NCBI RefSeq assembly: GCF_018614135.1
Contig: NZ_JAGGOW010000032.1
Location: 62,001-126,000 of the forward strand
Direction of reading: 5' to 3'
DNA from: Streptomyces sp. ISL-66
Lineage (GTDB): Bacteria; Actinomycetota; Actinomycetes; Streptomycetales; Streptomycetaceae
Length of the DNA stretch: 64,000 nucleotides
Each line of letters starts with the position of its first letter. Within the stretch, counting starts at the first letter, position 1. Shown in pieces: positions 46,786-54,118 of this stretch. The position numbers and the translations under genes were made by a program. The notes under the pieces were generated by a model. That model ran no database searches. It saw only the letters and a program-made list of their open reading frames with translations, and was not told the DNA's origin.

Positions 46786-46833
46786 ATGACCCCATCGGGC
46801 GGGGTGACCCGCCCCAACGGGAGGCAGGCGGCT

Positions 46834-48585
46834 GTGAGGACGACAGGGACAGGCATGGGAGCGGGAGCCGGAGCCGGAGCGGGGGCGGCGGCGCTGGGTC
46901 CGGTCCAGCGGGCCGAGGCGCTCGCCGCGATGGCCGAGCGGGAGCTGGACGTGCTGGTGGTCGGGGCGGGCGTGGTGGGGGCCGGCACCGCCCTCGACGC
47001 CGTGACCAGGGGCCTGGCGACCGGGCTGGTGGAGGCGCGGGACTGGGCCTCCGGCACGTCAAGTCGCTCCAGCAAGCTCATCCACGGCGGGCTCAGATAC
47101 TTGGAGATGCTCGACTTCGCCCTCGTGCGGGAGGCGCTGAAGGAGCGCGGCCTGCTGCTGGGGCGCCTCGCCCCGCACCTCGTGAAGCCGGTGCCCTTCC
47201 TCTACCCGTTGCAGCACAAGGGATGGGAGCGCTGGTACGCGGGCTCCGGGGTCGCGCTGTACGACGCGATGTCGCTCTCCAGCGGCCACGGGCGCGGACT
47301 GCCGACGCACCGCCACCTCTCGCGCCGGCGCGCCCTGCGGATCGCACCGGCGCTGCGCAAGGACGCACTGGTGGGCGCCCTGCAGTACTACGACGCCCAG
47401 ATGGACGACGCGCGGTACGTGGCGACCTTGGTCCGAACGGCCGCGGCGTACGGGGCGCAGTGCGCCAACCGGGCGAGGGTCGTCGGCTTCCTCCGGGAGG
47501 GCGAGCGGGTGGTCGGCGCGCGGGTGCGGGACGTGGAGGGCGGAGGCGAGTACGAGATCCGCGCGAAGCAGATCGTGAACGCGACGGGGGTGTGGACGGA
47601 CGACACCCAGGCGCTGATCGGGGAGCGCGGGCAGTTCCACGTACGGGCGTCCAAGGGCATCCACCTGGTGGTCCCCAAGGACCGGATCCACTCGACGACG
47701 GGACTGATCCTGCGGACCGAGAAGTCGGTGCTGTTCGTCATCCCGTGGGGCCGGCACTGGATCGTGGGCACCACGGACACCGACTGGGACCTGGACAAGG
47801 CGCACCCGGCGGCGTCCAGCGCGGACATCGACTACCTGCTGGAGCACGTGAACTCGGTGCTCGCGGTGCCGCTCACCAGGGACGACGTCCAAGGGGTCTA
47901 CGCCGGCCTGCGGCCGCTGCTGGCCGGGGAGTCGGACGCGACGAGCAAGCTCTCGCGCGAGCACACGGTGGCGCACCCGGTGCCGGGGCTGGTGGTGGTC
48001 GCCGGCGGCAAGTACACGACGTACCGGGTGATGGCCAAGGACGCGGTGGACGAGGCGGTGCACGGCCTGGACCAGAGGGTCGCGGAATGCGTCACGGAGG
48101 ACGTGCCGCTGATGGGGGCCGAGGGGTACCGGGCGCTGTGGAACGGGCGGGCGCGGATCGCGGGGCGGACGGGGCTTCACGTGGTGCGGGTGGAACACCT
48201 GTTGAACCGGTACGGGTCGATGACGGAGGAGCTGCTGACGCTGATCGCGGCGGACCCGTCGCTGGGGGAGCCGCTGACGGGCGCCGACGACTACCTCCGT
48301 GCCGAAGTGGTCTACGCGGCCTCGCACGAGGGGGCGCGCCACCTCGACGACGTGCTGACGCGGCGGACGCGGATCTCGATCGAGACCTTCGACCGGGGGA
48401 CGAGATCGGCCCGGGAATGCGCGGAGCTGATGGCTCCGGTTCTGGGCTGGGACGAACAGCAGATCGAGAAGGAAGTGGAACACTACGAGAAGCGGGTGCA
48501 GGCCGAGCGGGAATCGCAGCGCCAGCCGGATGACCAGACGGCGGACGCCGCGCGGCTGGGCGCGCCGGACATCGTCCCGTTGTAA
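46834..48585 (+). CDS. glpD: Glycerol-3-phosphate dehydrogenase (FAD, aerobic)
   Basis: 583 residues. Oxidises glycerol-3-phosphate to dihydroxyacetone phosphate at the membrane, passing electrons to quinone. FAD motif VLVVGAGVVGAGTALDAVTR (about residue 40), then SSRSSKLIHGGLRYLE and GTTDTDWD, AGLRPLLAGE. The GTG at 46834 has GGGAGG 9 nt upstream; an in-frame ATG at 46786 and another at 46855 are alternatives. No glpF/glpK are in the window. Confidence 0.93.
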   Translation: MRTTGTGMGAGAGAGAGAAALGPVQRAEALAAMAERELDVLVVGAGVVGAGTALDAVTRGLATGLVEARDWASGTSSRSSKLIHGGLRYLEMLDFALVREALKERGLLLGRLAPHLVKPVPFLYPLQHKGWERWYAGSGVALYDAMSLSSGHGRGLPTHRHLSRRRALRIAPALRKDALVGALQYYDAQMDDARYVATLVRTAAAYGAQCANRARVVGFLREGERVVGARVRDVEGGGEYEIRAKQIVNATGVWTDDTQALIGERGQFHVRASKGIHLVVPKDRIHSTTGLILRTEKSVLFVIPWGRHWIVGTTDTDWDLDKAHPAASSADIDYLLEHVNSVLAVPLTRDDVQGVYAGLRPLLAGESDATSKLSREHTVAHPVPGLVVVAGGKYTTYRVMAKDAVDEAVHGLDQRVAECVTEDVPLMGAEGYRALWNGRARIAGRTGLHVVRVEHLLNRYGSMTEELLTLIAADPSLGEPLTGADDYLRAEVVYAASHEGARHLDDVLTRRTRISIETFDRGTRSARECAELMAPVLGWDEQQIEKEVEHYEKRVQAERESQRQPDDQTADAARLGAPDIVPL

Positions 48586-48734: not shown

Positions 48735-51290
48735 ATGTCGAAGCCGGAGCACACCGAGTCGCCGGATCCGTCTGTCGGGACGGGAACGCCGGTGTCTCCG
48801 GCGGCCGATCACGCGGACGCGAAGTCCGAGAAGCCGAAATCCGAGAAGCCGAAGCTCGAAAAGCCGAAGCCCGCAGAGCCGGAGCCGGCTACCGCGGTTG
48901 AGTCTGAGGACCCGAAGCCAGCGGTGGCGGCGGAGCCGGAGGACGCGAAGCCCGCGGCGGCGGCTGAGCCCGAGGACGTGAAGCCGAAGTCGGCCGCGAA
49001 GCCCGCGGCCGCGAAGCCCGCGGCCGCGAAGCCCGCGGTGGCGGCGGAGCCGGAGGACGCGAAGCCTGCGGCGGCGGCTGAGCCCGCGGCCGCGAAGCCG
49101 AAGTCGGCCGCGAAGCCTGCGGCCGCGAAGCCTGCGGCCGCGAAGTCCGCGGCCGCGAAGTCCGCGGCCGCGAAGTCCGAGCCTGCGAAGCCCGCTGCCG
49201 CGAAGGCGGATCTGGGCAAGCCCGCCGCGGTGGAGGTCGCTGGGCCGGGTGAGCCCGAGGGTGCGGAGCCCGCGGACGCGAAGGCTCCTGCGGTGAAGCC
49301 CGTCGCGGTGAGCAAGGCCGATGAGGTGGCGGCAGCCGTCAAGGCGGCCGCGGCCAAGGCGGAGGAGGACCCCCACGACGAGGGGCGGTTGCTCGCGGGC
49401 CGCTACCGGCTCGGCGACGTCCTCGGCAAGGGCGGTATGGGCACCGTCTGGCGCGCCGTGGACGAGACCCTCGGCCGGACGGTCGCCGTCAAGGAACTCC
49501 GCTTCGGCACCGGGGTCGACGACGACGAGAAGCGCCGCCTCATCACGCGCACCCTGCGCGAGGCCAAGGCCATCGCGCGGATCCGCAGCGGCGGGGCGGT
49601 GACCGTCTACGACGTCGTCGACGAAGACGGCCGGCCGTGGATCGTCATGGAGCTCATCGAGGGCCCCTCGCTCGCCGAGTTCATACGGGAGAACGGCCCC
49701 CTCACTCCGCGCCGCGCCGCCGAAGTGGGCCTCGCCGTGCTCGACGTGCTCCGCGCCGCGCACCGCCAGGGCATCCTGCACCGGGACGTGAAGCCCTCCA
49801 ACGTGCTCCTCGCCGACCACGGCAACGGCCGTGTGGTCCTGACCGACTTCGGCATCGCCCAGGTCGAGGGTGACCCGTCCGTCACCTCCACCGGCATGCT
49901 CGTCGGCGCCCCCTCGTACATCTCCCCCGAGCGCGCCCGCGGCCAGCGCCCCGGTCCGCCGGCGGACATGTGGTCGCTCGGCGGCCTGCTGTACGCGGCG
50001 GTCGAGGGCGTCCCCCCGTACGACAAGGGATCGGCGCTCGCCACCCTCACCGCCGTGATGACCGAGCCGGTCGACCCGCCCAAGAACGCCGGTCCGCTGA
50101 CCGAGGTCATCTACGGGCTCCTCGTCAAGGACCCGGCCCACCGGCTCGACGACGACCGCGCACGGGCCATGCTCACGGCCGTGATCGATGCCCCCGAGCA
50201 GCCGGCCGCCGTAGCGGGTCCGAGCCCCGAGGAAACCCGGCAGATATCGCTCGCCGAGGCCCAGGAGGCCGCGGAGAAGGTCACTGCCGAGAAGGCGGCG
50301 AAGGCTGCCGAGAAGGCGGAGAAGAAGGAACGCGAGCGCAGGGACCGCGAGCAGCGCGAGCGCACCCGCGCCGCGCTGAAGTCGGCCCGCAAGGCGGCGG
50401 CCACGGCCGGCGCCGCCGGCGCGACCACGGCCGTGACGGCCGCCGAACGCCCGGCCCCGCGTCCCGCGCCCGTCGCCGCGCCGCTCACCGACGTCATGCC
50501 GCGCCGCACCATCGCCCTCGCGATAGCCGGCGTGGTCCTCGTGCTCGCGGTCATCGGCTCGCTCGTCGCCTATGCCTTCAACGGTGACGACGAGGGCGGT
50601 GCGACGCGCGACGGCAAGGGCTCCACCGCCTCGAGCCCCGCCGCCGGTTCCTCGCCGTCCCCCGCCGCCTCGCCCTCGCCCTCGCCCTCGCCTTCGCCGA
50701 AGACCGGTGAGTCTGCGGGCAGCGGCGGCGCGAGCTCGCCGAGCCCGACTCCGAGTGCCGGTGGCGGCGCGGGTACCGGCACCAACGCGAGCCAGGGGCA
50801 GGGCACGACGCCCGGCGGTTCCGGGAGCGAGATCCCGCCCGGGTTCGCGCAGGTGACCGACCCCGGCTTCCACTTCGCGATGGTGATGCCCGAGGGCTTC
50901 AAACAGACCGACACGATAGGCAAGAACGACGGGGTCATATACAGCCGGGACGGCGGTTTCCCGCGGATCCAGATCGACTTCAACAACAAGCCGACGGACG
51001 ACGCACGCGCGGCGTGGGCGGAGCTGGCCCCCGCCGTCGCGGGCAGCAGCACGAACTACAAGCTGCTCCGGCTCGAGCTGACGGAGTACCGGAACTACCC
51101 GACCGTCGCGGACTGGGAGTTCGAGCGGGACCAGAAGGGCGTCCGGGTCCGGGTGCTCGACCGCGGGTTCAAAATCGACGCCAAGCAGGGCTTCGCCATC
51201 ATGATCAGCTGCGTCGCCGATCAGTGGGACGCCACCGAGTGCGCGCAGCTGCGCAAGACGGCGTTCGAGACGTTCCGGCCCATGGGCTGA
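48735..51290 (+). CDS. Transmembrane Ser/Thr protein kinase with histone-like N-terminal repeat
   Basis: 851 residues. The first ~215 residues are low-complexity Lys/Ala/Pro/Glu repeats (AAKPAAAKPAAAK type) encoded by a 12-15 bp repeat. The Hanks-type kinase domain (about 224-480) has GKGGMGTVWRA, Lys253, HRDVKPSN with Asp351 and DFG Asp371, so all catalytic residues are present. A charged juxtamembrane coil precedes one transmembrane helix (about 592-615). The Ser/Pro-rich stalk and an outer domain of ~150 residues (PPGFAQVTDPGFHF...) follow. First of three related genes. Confidence 0.93.
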   Translation: MSKPEHTESPDPSVGTGTPVSPAADHADAKSEKPKSEKPKLEKPKPAEPEPATAVESEDPKPAVAAEPEDAKPAAAAEPEDVKPKSAAKPAAAKPAAAKPAVAAEPEDAKPAAAAEPAAAKPKSAAKPAAAKPAAAKSAAAKSAAAKSEPAKPAAAKADLGKPAAVEVAGPGEPEGAEPADAKAPAVKPVAVSKADEVAAAVKAAAAKAEEDPHDEGRLLAGRYRLGDVLGKGGMGTVWRAVDETLGRTVAVKELRFGTGVDDDEKRRLITRTLREAKAIARIRSGGAVTVYDVVDEDGRPWIVMELIEGPSLAEFIRENGPLTPRRAAEVGLAVLDVLRAAHRQGILHRDVKPSNVLLADHGNGRVVLTDFGIAQVEGDPSVTSTGMLVGAPSYISPERARGQRPGPPADMWSLGGLLYAAVEGVPPYDKGSALATLTAVMTEPVDPPKNAGPLTEVIYGLLVKDPAHRLDDDRARAMLTAVIDAPEQPAAVAGPSPEETRQISLAEAQEAAEKVTAEKAAKAAEKAEKKERERRDREQRERTRAALKSARKAAATAGAAGATTAVTAAERPAPRPAPVAAPLTDVMPRRTIALAIAGVVLVLAVIGSLVAYAFNGDDEGGATRDGKGSTASSPAAGSSPSPAASPSPSPSPSPKTGESAGSGGASSPSPTPSAGGGAGTGTNASQGQGTTPGGSGSEIPPGFAQVTDPGFHFAMVMPEGFKQTDTIGKNDGVIYSRDGGFPRIQIDFNNKPTDDARAAWAELAPAVAGSSTNYKLLRLELTEYRNYPTVADWEFERDQKGVRVRVLDRGFKIDAKQGFAIMISCVADQWDATECAQLRKTAFETFRPMG

Positions 51291-51430: not shown

Positions 51431-54118
51431 GTGGAGGACTACGCGGGCCGGATCCTGGCCGAGCGCTACCGCCTGCCGCTGCCCCCGTCCGACGAGTACG
51501 AGCTGATCGAGACCCGGGCCTTCGACACGCGGAGCGGGCAGGAAGTCCTGATACGGCAGGTGCCGTTGCCGGAGGTCGTGGACGCGGAGCTGCTGGACGG
51601 CGCGCGAGGCGGTCCCGCCGTCGCCGGCGGTCGGCGCGCCCCGGGCGAACTGCCCGCCGTGCGCAGGGCCATCGAGGCGGCGCAGGCGGCCGCGTCCGTG
51701 CCGGACCATCCGCGGCTGGACCAGGTCTTCGACGTGTTCGCGGAGGGCGGGTCGCTGTGGATCGTGAGCGAACTCGTACCGGCCAGACCGCTGGCGGCGC
51801 TGATCGCCGAGGAACCGCTGAGCCCGTACCGGGCCGCCGAGGTGGCGGCCGACGTGCTGACCGCGCTGCGGGTGCTGCACGCGCACGGGTGGACCCACCG
51901 GAACATCACGGTGCGGACGGTGCTGATCTGCGAGGACGGACGGGTCGTCCTGACCGGACTGGCCGCGGGGGCCGCCGAGGACGCGCTGTGCGGGTACGAC
52001 CCGGTGCCGTCGCCGGACGGCTTCGGGGGCCCGGCGGTCCGGTCCGGGGGTGCTGAACCGGGCCATGCGGGTCCTGCCGGTCCCGTCCGTTCCATCGATC
52101 CCGCCGGTCTCGTCCGTTCCATCGATCCCGCCGGTCCCGTGGACCCCGTGCATAACCCCGGAGCCGGGGCCGGAGCCGGGGGAGGGGGAGGGTCGGAGTA
52201 CGCGCCGATCGTGGCTCCCGGCTACGACACCGGGCCGAGGTACACCGACCACATCGTCCCCGGAAGCACCGGCGACGCCGGGGAGCGGCCCGATCCGAAG
52301 GCCGCGGCACGGGCCGGGGCCATCGCCTCGTACCGGGCCGGGGCGCAGGCCGCCGCCCGGATCACCGAGCAGCGGAAGGCCGGGGCGGATCCCGCCCTCG
52401 GTCCCGCGCGGGAGCCGAGGCCGGAGGGGTCGAACCTGCCGCAGGGGTACTCGTACCCGTACGGCGGCCCGGACGGCGGAGCGAGCTGGCACGGGGCCAC
52501 CCCGCGGCGCCGGGCCGCTCTGCCCGCCCCGCCGCCCCGGGACGGGGCCGAACCGCAGACTCCGCCGGTGCGCCCCGGGCCGCCCGAGGCGCAGACATCG
52601 GCGGTGCGTCCGTCGCTCCCCGAGGCGCAGACCCCGCCGGTGTATCCGTCGCTCCCCGAGGGGCAGAGCCCGCCCGTGCGCCCCGGGCTGCCCGCGCAGC
52701 TCGCCCTTCCCCAGGGATACCGCCAGGCGGACTCCCCGGAGGGCGCCCCCGACCCGGGCCGGCCCCTGACGCCCCGGCCGTCCCGGCAGTCCCGGCCGGG
52801 CGACGAGACGTACGGCTACGGGTACGGGAATGCGGCCCCGACCCCGGCCCCCCCGACCCCGGCTCCGCCCCCGCCCCCGCCCGGAGGCGGAGGCGGCGGG
52901 TGGGGGAGCGGGCCCCGGAGCGGGCTCGATGCCGAGCGGGCCCGGCAGACGCGGATGGCCGTCGTCGGGGCCGTCACCGAGCGGTGGTCGCCCGAGCAGG
53001 CGCAGGCCGTGCACGGCCCCTGGCAGCTGGCCGCGCCCGTCGGGCCGGCCACGGACCTCTGGGGGCTCGGCGCGCTGCTGTACCGGGCCGTGCAGGGCCA
53101 TGCCCCGTACCCCGAGGACAGCGTCGGCGAGCTCGTCGAGATGGTCTGCGCCGAGCCCCCGGCCTTCGCCGAGGAGTGCGGCCCGCTGCGCCCGGTCGTG
53201 GAGTCGCTGCTGCGCCAGGACCCGACCGAGCGTCCCGACTTCGAGGAGCTCCGCGGCTGGCTGCGCTCCCTCGTACGGTCCGCCCCCGAGCCCGACGCCA
53301 ACTTCGCCGCGCTGCTCCCGATACCGGAGCCGGATCCCGCGCGGCTGCCCGTCGTACGGCGGCGGGGCGATCTGCACGGCCGGCACCGCAGCGCCGAACA
53401 CCCCCGCAAGCCGCTCGCCCTGGGGCGGGCCCTGCTCCTCGGGGTGCTCGTCCTGCTCGCGGGCGCGGTGGCGTACGCCCTGTTCTTCATGCCCCGGTCC
53501 GCCGATCCCCAGGGCGACGGCGGGCAGAAGGCCGCCGGGATGAAGCCGCCGTCCGCCCAGCCGAAGTCCCCGGGCGCGAGCACCGGTCCGAGCCCGAAGC
53601 CGAACCCCTCGGGCGCGAGCCCCAGCGCGCCCGAATCCAAGCCCGCGCCGCAGACCAACGCGCCGGCCCCGGCCGGGTACACCACCCAGCAGGACGCCGA
53701 GCACTTCGAGATCACCGTCCCGAACGGCTGGGACCGTCGCGGAATGAACGAGTCCGGTCAGGTGCGCTACACGGAGGGGGAGTTCGCCCTCACCATCGTC
53801 CCCGGCCGGGACAAGGTCGAGGGCAACCCGGACCCGGCGACGTACCAGAAGGACAAGGAGCCCGAGCTGGCCCCGTACCGCTCCTCCACCTGGTCCAGCG
53901 TCAGCGACATCAAGTCCACCAAGGTCGGCAACCAGCTCCGCGTCACCGGCCGGTACACGTGGATCGACGGCAACGGCCGCTCGGTCGTGGCCCGCAACTA
54001 CGTCGTCGCGCTCGGCGGCTCGTACCACGTCGTCCTGGTCACGGGCCCGCAGGACCAGGAGGGCAAGGTCACCGAGGCCTTCGAGCAGGCAACGGCCAGT
54101 TACCGTACGGGCGGCTGA
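51431..54118 (+). CDS. Transmembrane pseudokinase with long disordered insert
   Basis: 895 residues from GTG 51431 (GGGAGG upstream). The kinase fold is recognisable but degenerate: no Gly-rich loop, Arg42 at the ATP lysine position (VLIRQVPL), HRN (Asn158) for HRD and Gly176 in place of the DFG aspartate (VVLTGLAAG). An insert of about 330 Pro/Gly-rich residues (about 185-515) splits it. The C-lobe resumes at ATDLWGLGALLYRAVQGHAP, then a transmembrane helix (about 667-690), a Pro/Ser stalk and an outer domain like those of both neighbours. Lacking catalysis, it is probably a scaffold or allosteric partner. Confidence 0.88.
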   Translation: MEDYAGRILAERYRLPLPPSDEYELIETRAFDTRSGQEVLIRQVPLPEVVDAELLDGARGGPAVAGGRRAPGELPAVRRAIEAAQAAASVPDHPRLDQVFDVFAEGGSLWIVSELVPARPLAALIAEEPLSPYRAAEVAADVLTALRVLHAHGWTHRNITVRTVLICEDGRVVLTGLAAGAAEDALCGYDPVPSPDGFGGPAVRSGGAEPGHAGPAGPVRSIDPAGLVRSIDPAGPVDPVHNPGAGAGAGGGGGSEYAPIVAPGYDTGPRYTDHIVPGSTGDAGERPDPKAAARAGAIASYRAGAQAAARITEQRKAGADPALGPAREPRPEGSNLPQGYSYPYGGPDGGASWHGATPRRRAALPAPPPRDGAEPQTPPVRPGPPEAQTSAVRPSLPEAQTPPVYPSLPEGQSPPVRPGLPAQLALPQGYRQADSPEGAPDPGRPLTPRPSRQSRPGDETYGYGYGNAAPTPAPPTPAPPPPPPGGGGGGWGSGPRSGLDAERARQTRMAVVGAVTERWSPEQAQAVHGPWQLAAPVGPATDLWGLGALLYRAVQGHAPYPEDSVGELVEMVCAEPPAFAEECGPLRPVVESLLRQDPTERPDFEELRGWLRSLVRSAPEPDANFAALLPIPEPDPARLPVVRRRGDLHGRHRSAEHPRKPLALGRALLLGVLVLLAGAVAYALFFMPRSADPQGDGGQKAAGMKPPSAQPKSPGASTGPSPKPNPSGASPSAPESKPAPQTNAPAPAGYTTQQDAEHFEITVPNGWDRRGMNESGQVRYTEGEFALTIVPGRDKVEGNPDPATYQKDKEPELAPYRSSTWSSVSDIKSTKVGNQLRVTGRYTWIDGNGRSVVARNYVVALGGSYHVVLVTGPQDQEGKVTEAFEQATASYRTGG

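Follow-up and report, generated by a model that had tools for sequence, protein, structure and literature searches.

What does a kinase-like membrane protein do when it has lost the residues of catalysis and is encoded between two active receptor kinases? The question is raised by a locus in Streptomyces sp. ISL-66, located in a stretch of 64,000 nt (contig NZ_JAGGOW010000032.1, positions 62,001–126,000 of the forward strand), which is referred to here as the window. The middle gene of the locus is termed PSK, for pseudokinase, and the active receptor Ser/Thr kinases upstream and downstream of it are termed KA and KC, respectively. PSK probably represents a non-catalytic, membrane-anchored partner of the ActPs2 type that works with the neighbouring receptor kinases, most likely with the upstream kinase, which is of the PkaH type. 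We give this reading a probability of roughly 55%.

An alignment of PSK with KA and KC shows which residues have been replaced. An initial annotation, made from the sequence of the window, had described the middle gene as missing the Gly-rich loop, the ATP lysine (Arg42), the HRD aspartate (Asn158) and the DFG aspartate (Gly176), and the comparison with both neighbours agrees at each position. The beta3 Lys, HRD Asp and DFG Asp columns are occupied by Arg42, Asn158 and Gly176. The Gly-rich loop is gone, with PLPPSDEYE in PSK compared with GKGGMG/GRGGMG in KA/KC, and the motifs HRNITVRT and TGL stand in place of HRDVKPxN and DFG in the neighbours. Further losses are the alphaC Glu (Ala83), the Lys of HRDxK (Thr160) and the catalytic-loop Asn (Thr163). 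All six features of an active Hanks-type kinase, i.e., the Gly loop, the Lys, the alphaC Glu, the HRD Asp, the Asn and the DFG Asp, are absent, and PSK, judged by motif, is without the residues of a conventional kinase.

The lesions are highly conserved. Arg42, Ala83, Asn158, Thr160, Thr163 and Gly176 are each identical in 80/80 alignable rows of an 81-row alignment, which consists of the window and 80 loci from named Streptomyces, the top-ranked 80 among 483 confirmed relatives. The one gapped row (L032) is from a gene that is split over two frames, as are other genes at that locus. Because the same residues are found in all 80 rows, the lesions are, by this comparison, more than the product of chance or local mutation. 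One of the six search patterns (HGWTHRNI) holds the HRN lesion, so that Asn158 was partly selected for; the other lesion positions are outside the patterns. A second set of 32 more divergent relatives came from a whole-domain search, which has no HRN-pattern bias. Three of these loci (L133–L135) belong to the genus of the window. All 32 are dead by motif. The DFG Asp column has Gly in every one, and the HRD Asp column has Asn in 30 and Ala in two. The beta3 site is never Lys (Arg 13, Glu 6, Asp 4, His 4, one each of Phe, Thr, Gly and Gln, and one gap), although the N-lobe alignment of these relatives is uncertain. Other residues are retained in all 81 rows, i.e., Trp519, Pro521 and Glu522 at the APE site, Asp542, Trp544 and Arg601, and the fold of PSK thus looks maintained while catalysis is not. 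The unchanging lesions, their presence in the divergent relatives and the constraint on the kinase core described below strongly support the pseudokinase assignment of the initial annotation.

A family with this build has already been described. The available text of O'Boyle et al. 2025 (PMC12599244) has seven annotated bacterial pseudokinase families, those presented being without known function. In one of these, ActPs2, the beta3 Lys is replaced by Arg and the HRD Asp by Asn, DFG has a deletion in most members, and a transmembrane helix is C-terminal. It also has an insert of ~32 residues between beta3 and alphaC and a disordered insert of ~250 residues in the activation loop, each in ~90% of members, to which the review assigns no clear function. 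The ActPs2 representative within the Act2 group is WP_053198479.1, and an AlphaFold3 model of a representative with ATP (iPTM, the interface predicted template modelling score, 0.87) uses R42 and R177. PSK shares the Arg, the Asn, both inserts, the C-terminal transmembrane helix and the actinobacterial origin, with Arg42, Asn158, inserts of 18 and 318 residues and a transmembrane helix from residue 668; the arginine of the representative is also R42. The DFG loss in PSK aligns as a Thr-Gly-Leu substitution where ActPs2 mostly has a deletion, an outcome that depends on the aligner. By these described features PSK fits the ActPs2 type. PSK differs from the described ActPs2 proteins in its association with a constant kinase locus and in its PsbP-like outer domain, and its compact relatives (see below) differ in that they are without the long insert and partly without the Arg. 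The words "Streptomyces", "spore" and "sporulation" do not occur in the available text of PMC12599244, which gives no locus link for ActPs2. New here are the locus position, the PsbP/LpqN-like outer domain, an apparently late insert with a conserved island, and the compact form in sister genera.

PSK could also be an atypical nucleotide-binding pseudokinase, in which Arg42 replaces the Lys and ATP is bound with one metal, to serve as a binding switch or in some other transfer chemistry. The published ATP model, for which its authors call for biochemistry, and the identity of Arg42 in all 80 Streptomyces orthologs are consistent with this. However, the alphaC Glu, the Gly-rich loop, the DFG Asp and the catalytic Asn are gone as well, and Arg is at the beta3 site in just 13/32 divergent relatives, so that, within the uncertainty of the N-lobe alignment, a basic residue would not be a family-wide requirement. 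We consider nucleotide binding unlikely to be the role of PSK.

The position of PSK is nearly constant. The gene upstream of KA (46786–48585) encodes a flavin adenine dinucleotide (FAD) enzyme with Pfam DAO and DAO_C matches, which we take to be GlpD, and frames downstream of the cluster are presumably SSADH and GMC, labels given without a family search. With these names, the usual order in the 81 Streptomyces loci is GlpD, KA, PSK, KC, 0–3 more kinases, SSADH and GMC. The clusters mostly have 3 to 6 kinases with PSK second; in the window there are three kinase-like genes. The first kinase upstream of PSK is KA in 81/81 loci, 74 by script and seven by inspection: in L005, L008, L016 and L019 the KA frame opens before GlpD and was hidden by sorting, in L055 the KA outer-domain frame is nearest, and in L027 and L039 the end of KA is cut by the contig. 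A KA-type kinase is also upstream in 31 of the 32 divergent relatives, the remaining one being at a contig edge. KC directly follows PSK in 76/81 Streptomyces loci, and it can apparently be absent while KA and PSK stay. PSK thus lies, as far as motifs and gene order tell, directly downstream of one active PkaH-like receptor kinase in a spore-wall kinase locus, and this kinase is the partner that position supports best. In one locus, L053 (S. inusitatus), GlpD, KA and PSK are followed by SSADH, with no KC or other kinase detected between.

Both neighbours are catalytically complete, as the initial annotation had stated. The GxGxxG motif, the VAVK Lys, HRD, Asn and DFG are kept by KA in 79/80 rows (one gapped) and by KC in 77/77 rows, the window included in both counts. 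The extra downstream kinases of larger clusters have the HRD Asp in 124 and the DFG Asp in 125 of 131 rows, counting the reference row. Exceptions among these rows are Glu (2) and Gly (2) at the HRD site, and Gly (3) and Gln (1) at the DFG site, hinting at more pseudokinases or at frame errors.

A corresponding row of genes is found in S. coelicolor, where the available text of Ladwig et al. 2015 (PMC4416010) lists five eSTPK genes, SCO4775 (pkaH), SCO4776, SCO4777 (pkaD), SCO4778 (pkaI) and SCO4779 (pkaJ). PSK is the SCO4776 ortholog by position, because it comes second among the kinase genes of the row, between PkaH and PkaD; KA likewise corresponds to PkaH/SCO4775 and KC to PkaD/SCO4777. 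The gene order thus supports the relation to the SCO4775–4779 cluster put forward in the initial annotation, with PSK at the same position but with five kinase genes in S. coelicolor compared with three kinase-like genes in the window. A reverse numbering of the row, which would make PSK the counterpart of PkaI, was excluded, as PkaI phosphorylates MreC and PBP2 (PMC4416010). Ladwig et al. treat SCO4776 as one of five kinases. They made cluster deletion and second-copy strains of S. coelicolor, and a second copy of SCO4776 gives aberrant, vancomycin-sensitive spores, as does a second copy of pkaH, pkaD or pkaJ, and not of pkaI. The effect is explained by these authors as an imbalance of kinase activity. 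In the available text of that article the word "inactive" is used once, of phosphorylated wall proteins and never of a kinase. No paper that calls SCO4776 a pseudokinase was found in the open-access literature, which misses most subscription papers.

Relatives outside Streptomyces show which parts of PSK are old. In a sample of the family, 121/150 genomes match PSK (E <= 1e-25), and these are spread over 15/17 genera. Two family genomes without such a match (G692 and G712) still match the C-lobe, in frames of 367 and 380 amino acids (aa) that have other kinase matches within ~2.5 kb. Further out, the best match in eight genomes of other families of the same order is 7.3e-17, and in a 394-genome sample of the class none outside the genus passed 1e-25 (best 3.2e-24), although such thresholds could miss more divergent pseudokinases. 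Sixteen outside genomes passed 1e-18; in the ten of these that were read, the kinases have HRDxKxxN and DFG intact in 10/10 loci and VAxK in 9/10. Within the divergent set, the loci L104–L121 of sister genera have compact pseudokinases in the same slot, without a detected outer domain and with frames of 361–529 aa (except L109, at 777, where the frame is open further upstream). In some of these the beta3 Lys is replaced by Glu or Asp. Profile searches find the PSK outer domain in 13/33 PSK frames and the KA outer domain in 26/30 KA-type frames, among them 15 loci with a compact PSK.

A tree was made from 47 rows, i.e., 40 PSK sequences (11 from Streptomyces and 29 of the 32 loci, three being without an aligned C-lobe) and seven active KA/KC-type kinases. 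The pseudokinases are all on one side, with a support of 100 in the Shimodaira–Hasegawa-like approximate likelihood ratio test (SH-aLRT). A branch of support 77 parts 17 compact PSK sequences that have no outer domain from 23 that have it. Among the 29 relatives with both lobes aligned, the activation-loop span is 26–98 residues in the 17 compact ones and 42–71 in ten others, and a long insert is present only in L122 (158) and L134 (315, same genus). The tree requires two changes to account for long inserts and one for the outer domain, with the root fork left open. Most simply, the dead core, the transmembrane helix and the upstream partner would be old; the long insert, together with its island, would be a later arrival on the Streptomyces side. 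The outer domain may be either a gain on the Streptomyces-like side or a loss in the compact side.

The long insert is in the activation loop. The stretch between the DFG column and the APE Pro has 345 residues in PSK compared with 27 in each neighbour, i.e., 318 extra residues, close to the ~330 first estimated for an insert within the kinase fold. The median number of extra residues across orthologs is 312.5, with at least 200 in 80/80 rows, and the insert length by alignment is 206–617 residues in the 81 Streptomyces rows. The insert between beta3 and alphaC has 18 extra residues in the window PSK (median 29, range 14–47, 80 rows). The activation-loop insert is chiefly Ala, Gly and Pro, with Ser+Thr at ~9% (a figure taken without comparison to background), and most of it is predicted by AlphaFold2 (AF2) at a predicted local distance difference test score (pLDDT) <50. 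It contains an island at residues 291–310, in which Tyr301-Arg302-Ala303-Gly304 and four Ala (Ala303 among them) are identical in 80/80 rows. A strict pattern of the island matches 73/81 ungapped sequences. The island sits within a predicted helix of low confidence (residues 289–316, AF2), and a search of the genome for further copies of it found none at E <= 1. Of the 32 divergent relatives only L134, of the same genus, has an island-like sequence. The AF2 model of the kinase part, made from 31 rows (the window and 30 diverse loci of the 80), has a mean pLDDT of 50.8 and a predicted template modelling score (pTM) of 0.32; its best structural match has Z 7.5 at a root-mean-square deviation (rmsd) of 18.2, and the model geometry was not used.

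According to the initial annotation this insert is a disordered phospho-acceptor region. In that case PSK would be a phospho-scaffold, with the long insert phosphorylated by the neighbours and recruiting FHA-type or spore-wall proteins. The length and low pLDDT of the insert, the active kinases in the locus and the near-invariant island are all in keeping with a scaffold. Conserved Ser/Thr positions were sought over residues 190–498 in 80 orthologs, and only one column, 497, near the insert end, has Ser/Thr in >60% of them; with the low Ser+Thr content and an activation loop that is short in 27/29 aligned relatives, the phospho-acceptor proposal is not supported, although phosphosites in disordered stretches can drift. 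A phospho-scaffold appears somewhat less probable than nucleotide binding.

The kinase core of PSK is constrained. Pairwise omega was calculated by the method of Nei and Gojobori (NG86) over PSK residues 1–49, 78–189 and 506–622 for 150 random pairs, all with a synonymous divergence (dS) <1.5. The median in the PSK core is 0.10, compared with 0.13 in the kinase domain of KA and 0.23 in that of KC; dS is rough in GC-rich DNA, and omega is used for order of size only. Measured against the window protein, the two parts of the PSK core have mean identities of 0.835 and 0.872, which are near the values of the active kinase domains (KA 0.862, KC 0.79). These values indicate purifying selection on the PSK kinase core, and a dead kinase core this constrained implies that PSK has a job. 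PSK is found in 281/295 Streptomyces genomes (E <= 1e-25). The 14 genomes with no match are all fragmented (480–1770 contigs), and six of them have a strong match to the PSK C-lobe, which in four of the six starts within 900 bases of the contig's first base. That PSK is a decaying relic, a dead duplicate retained by chance or linkage, is very improbable: all catalytic motifs are lost and the available text of PMC4416010 describes no deletion of SCO4776 alone, but the core omega, the unchanging lesions, the wide presence in Streptomyces and the single origin in the tree all speak against decay, as does the rarity of frame breaks, the one split gene (L032) being in a locus where other genes are split too.

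The transmembrane helix and outer domain of the middle gene have been kept, as first described. The strongest 19-residue hydrophobic stretch of PSK starts at residue 668 (mean hydropathy 2.6), within a predicted helix at 663–686 with a block pLDDT of 81–96 (AF2), and the outer domain extends over about residues 748–895. The AF2 model of residues 735–895 has a pLDDT of 90.6 and a pTM of 0.85. Its closest fold is PsbP (2vu4, Z 14.6, rmsd 2.6, 137 aligned), followed by Mog1p (1eq6, Z 13.7) and the mycobacterial proteins MTC28 (4pws, Z 12.2) and LpqN (6e5d, Z 12.2). The likeness to these domains is one of fold, with only ~9–16% identity, and a common fold gives no ligand or function. Pfam has nothing over the cut-off for the outer domain of the window PSK (Chitin_bind_4 at 19 bits, cut-off 25); weak matches among 31 outer domains are to Chitin_bind_4 (5/31 at E <= 1) and DcrB (1/31 at 0.018). 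A sequence search of the PDB gave one chain at E 0.4. PASTA repeats have no Pfam match at E <= 1 in PSK, KA or KC. Comparison of outer-domain profiles gives 98.5% for KA–KC, 96.6% for KC–PSK and only 68.3% for KA–PSK, and the KA profile finds 21/81 PSK outer domains. The outer domains of the three receptors are probably versions of a single domain, with KA and PSK tied mainly via KC. In Streptomyces the outer domain of PSK thus has apparent kin in those of the locus kinases.

PSK is dead by motif, yet the dose of its positional ortholog SCO4776 alters spore-wall quality, and the best reading is that of a binding partner that acts through its amount. As a non-catalytic partner, PSK would be stoichiometric with the neighbouring receptor kinases. 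Its kinase fold and transmembrane helix would pair with an active kinase and set how much of this kinase is assembled or active, a pairing that we model on the pseudokinase domains of other kinase pairs. The core interaction would lie in the fold and the helix rather than in the outer domain or the insert, because compact relatives have just these two parts, although the PkaH-type kinase beside them has retained its outer domain. The outer domain of PSK may, in Streptomyces, give the pair a common cell-surface input, and the near-invariant island of the insert may dock a further protein. An altered dose of PSK would then unbalance spore-wall control though nothing is phosphorylated by PSK, and the published second-copy spore damage agrees better with such a dosage effect than with excess kinase activity. 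The co-occurrence of SCO4776 with the kinases is supported by a proteome report (PMC9739823), in the available text of which PkaH, SCO4776, PkaD and PkaJ all have a higher abundance in S. coelicolor than in S. lividans.

Several observations weigh against this partnership. In S. coelicolor the five cluster genes are transcribed separately, and the SCO4776 transcript is present throughout the life cycle while the pkaH transcript was undetected (PMC4416010). SCO4776 is not among the two-hybrid partners of PkaI named in the available text of that article, its six mentions being elsewhere. The physical partnership is drawn from sequence and position, neighbouring genes can be inherited together without their products forming a complex, and the identity of PSK with SCO4776 is based on gene order. 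The PSK outer-domain profile finds 0/78 KA outer domains at 1e-3, and for two of the seven pairs involving the window omega is lower in KA than in PSK. Co-divergence over 57 loci is stronger for KA and PSK (partial r 0.74) than for KC (0.45), but the excess is gone within sub-clades of 40 loci (0.40 vs 0.44) and 17 loci (0.38 vs 0.34), and the naming of a partner by co-divergence was dropped. The obligate receptor complex of the initial annotation is thus plausible as a complex, given the constant adjacency of KA and the related outer domains; "obligate" does not agree with separate transcription and an undetected pkaH transcript. A wider proposal, which is tentative, is that from the base of the family one dead kinase has been a dedicated non-catalytic subunit of a PkaH-type kinase, and that the insert with its YRAG island would be a later docking module.

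The coordinates of the locus are given in Table 1. The DNA of the window is Streptomyces-like, with a GC content of 65–78% in 2-kb steps, and the assembly is 7.7 Mb. PSK starts with a GTG at 51431, preceded by the purine-rich sequence GGGGGAGG, and its stop codon ends at 54118. Pfam Pkinase (PF00069) matches PSK in two stretches with E 3.3e-12. In KA the kinase domain is at about residues 221–475, the transmembrane helix starts at 593 and the outer domain is at about 700–851; in KC these are at 12–270, from 352 and at about 410–559. Ahead of its kinase domain, KA has an N-terminal stretch (window 48735–49400) of ~200 residues with abundant Ala, Lys, Pro and Glu.

Table 1. Features of the PSK locus, in window coordinates
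Feature	Position	Strand	Basis
KA, active receptor Ser/Thr kinase, 851 aa	48735..51290	+	Pkinase E 1.7e-41
PSK, pseudokinase, 895 aa	51431..54118	+	Pkinase in two pieces, motif losses, ActPs2 features
PSK residues 1–189, N-lobe to degenerate HRN and TGL motifs	51431..51997	+	
PSK residues 190–498, Pro/Gly/Ala-rich activation-loop insert	51998..52924	+	largely pLDDT <50
PSK residues 291–310, conserved island in insert	52301..52360	+	column counts
PSK residues 499–622, C-lobe, APE-like WSPE and Asp542/Trp544 retained	52925..53296	+	alignment
PSK residues 668–686, single transmembrane helix, basic residues ahead	53432..53488	+	hydropathy scan, sequence
PSK residues 748–895, outer domain, PsbP/Mog1/LpqN-like fold	53672..54115	+	AF2 model of 735–895
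KC, active receptor Ser/Thr kinase, 559 aa	54236..55915	+	Pkinase E 3.8e-47

Two other systems have features in common with PSK. The ActPs3 or MurJ(MviN)-linked pseudokinase is likewise actinobacterial, membrane-located and linked to wall synthesis, but it has its own lesions, an activation-loop deletion (available text of PMC12599244) and another outer part, and is a gene separate from PSK. EssB/YukC of type VII secretion is likewise a transmembrane-anchored dead kinase, and acts as a scaffold (PMC12599244); its locus and outer part differ. A likely ActPs3 is present in the same genome as PSK, where a degenerate kinase (L101:1160–2983, minus strand; Pkinase 26.9 bits, cut-off 31.7; weak F5/8 type C match) directly adjoins MurJ (L101:3017–4999, E 4.7e-114). 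Another weak kinase match in this genome (L102:29–2713, minus strand) belongs to a long protein. This protein presumably resembles a class III/IV lanthipeptide synthetase, a label assigned without a family search.

If PSK is a non-catalytic partner of the PkaH-type kinase, the spore damage caused by a second copy of SCO4776 would be the first ActPs2 phenotype and a case of bacterial kinase control by pseudokinase dosage. ActPs2 would be linked to a locus that is amenable to genetics in the model organism S. coelicolor, and the published second-copy damage would become a direct test of non-catalytic kinase control. ATP binding based on Arg42 cannot be family-wide if compact relatives have Glu or Asp at that site, which limits the published idea. 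The PsbP/LpqN-like outer domain would represent a sensor type distinct from PASTA for a wall-related kinase cluster.

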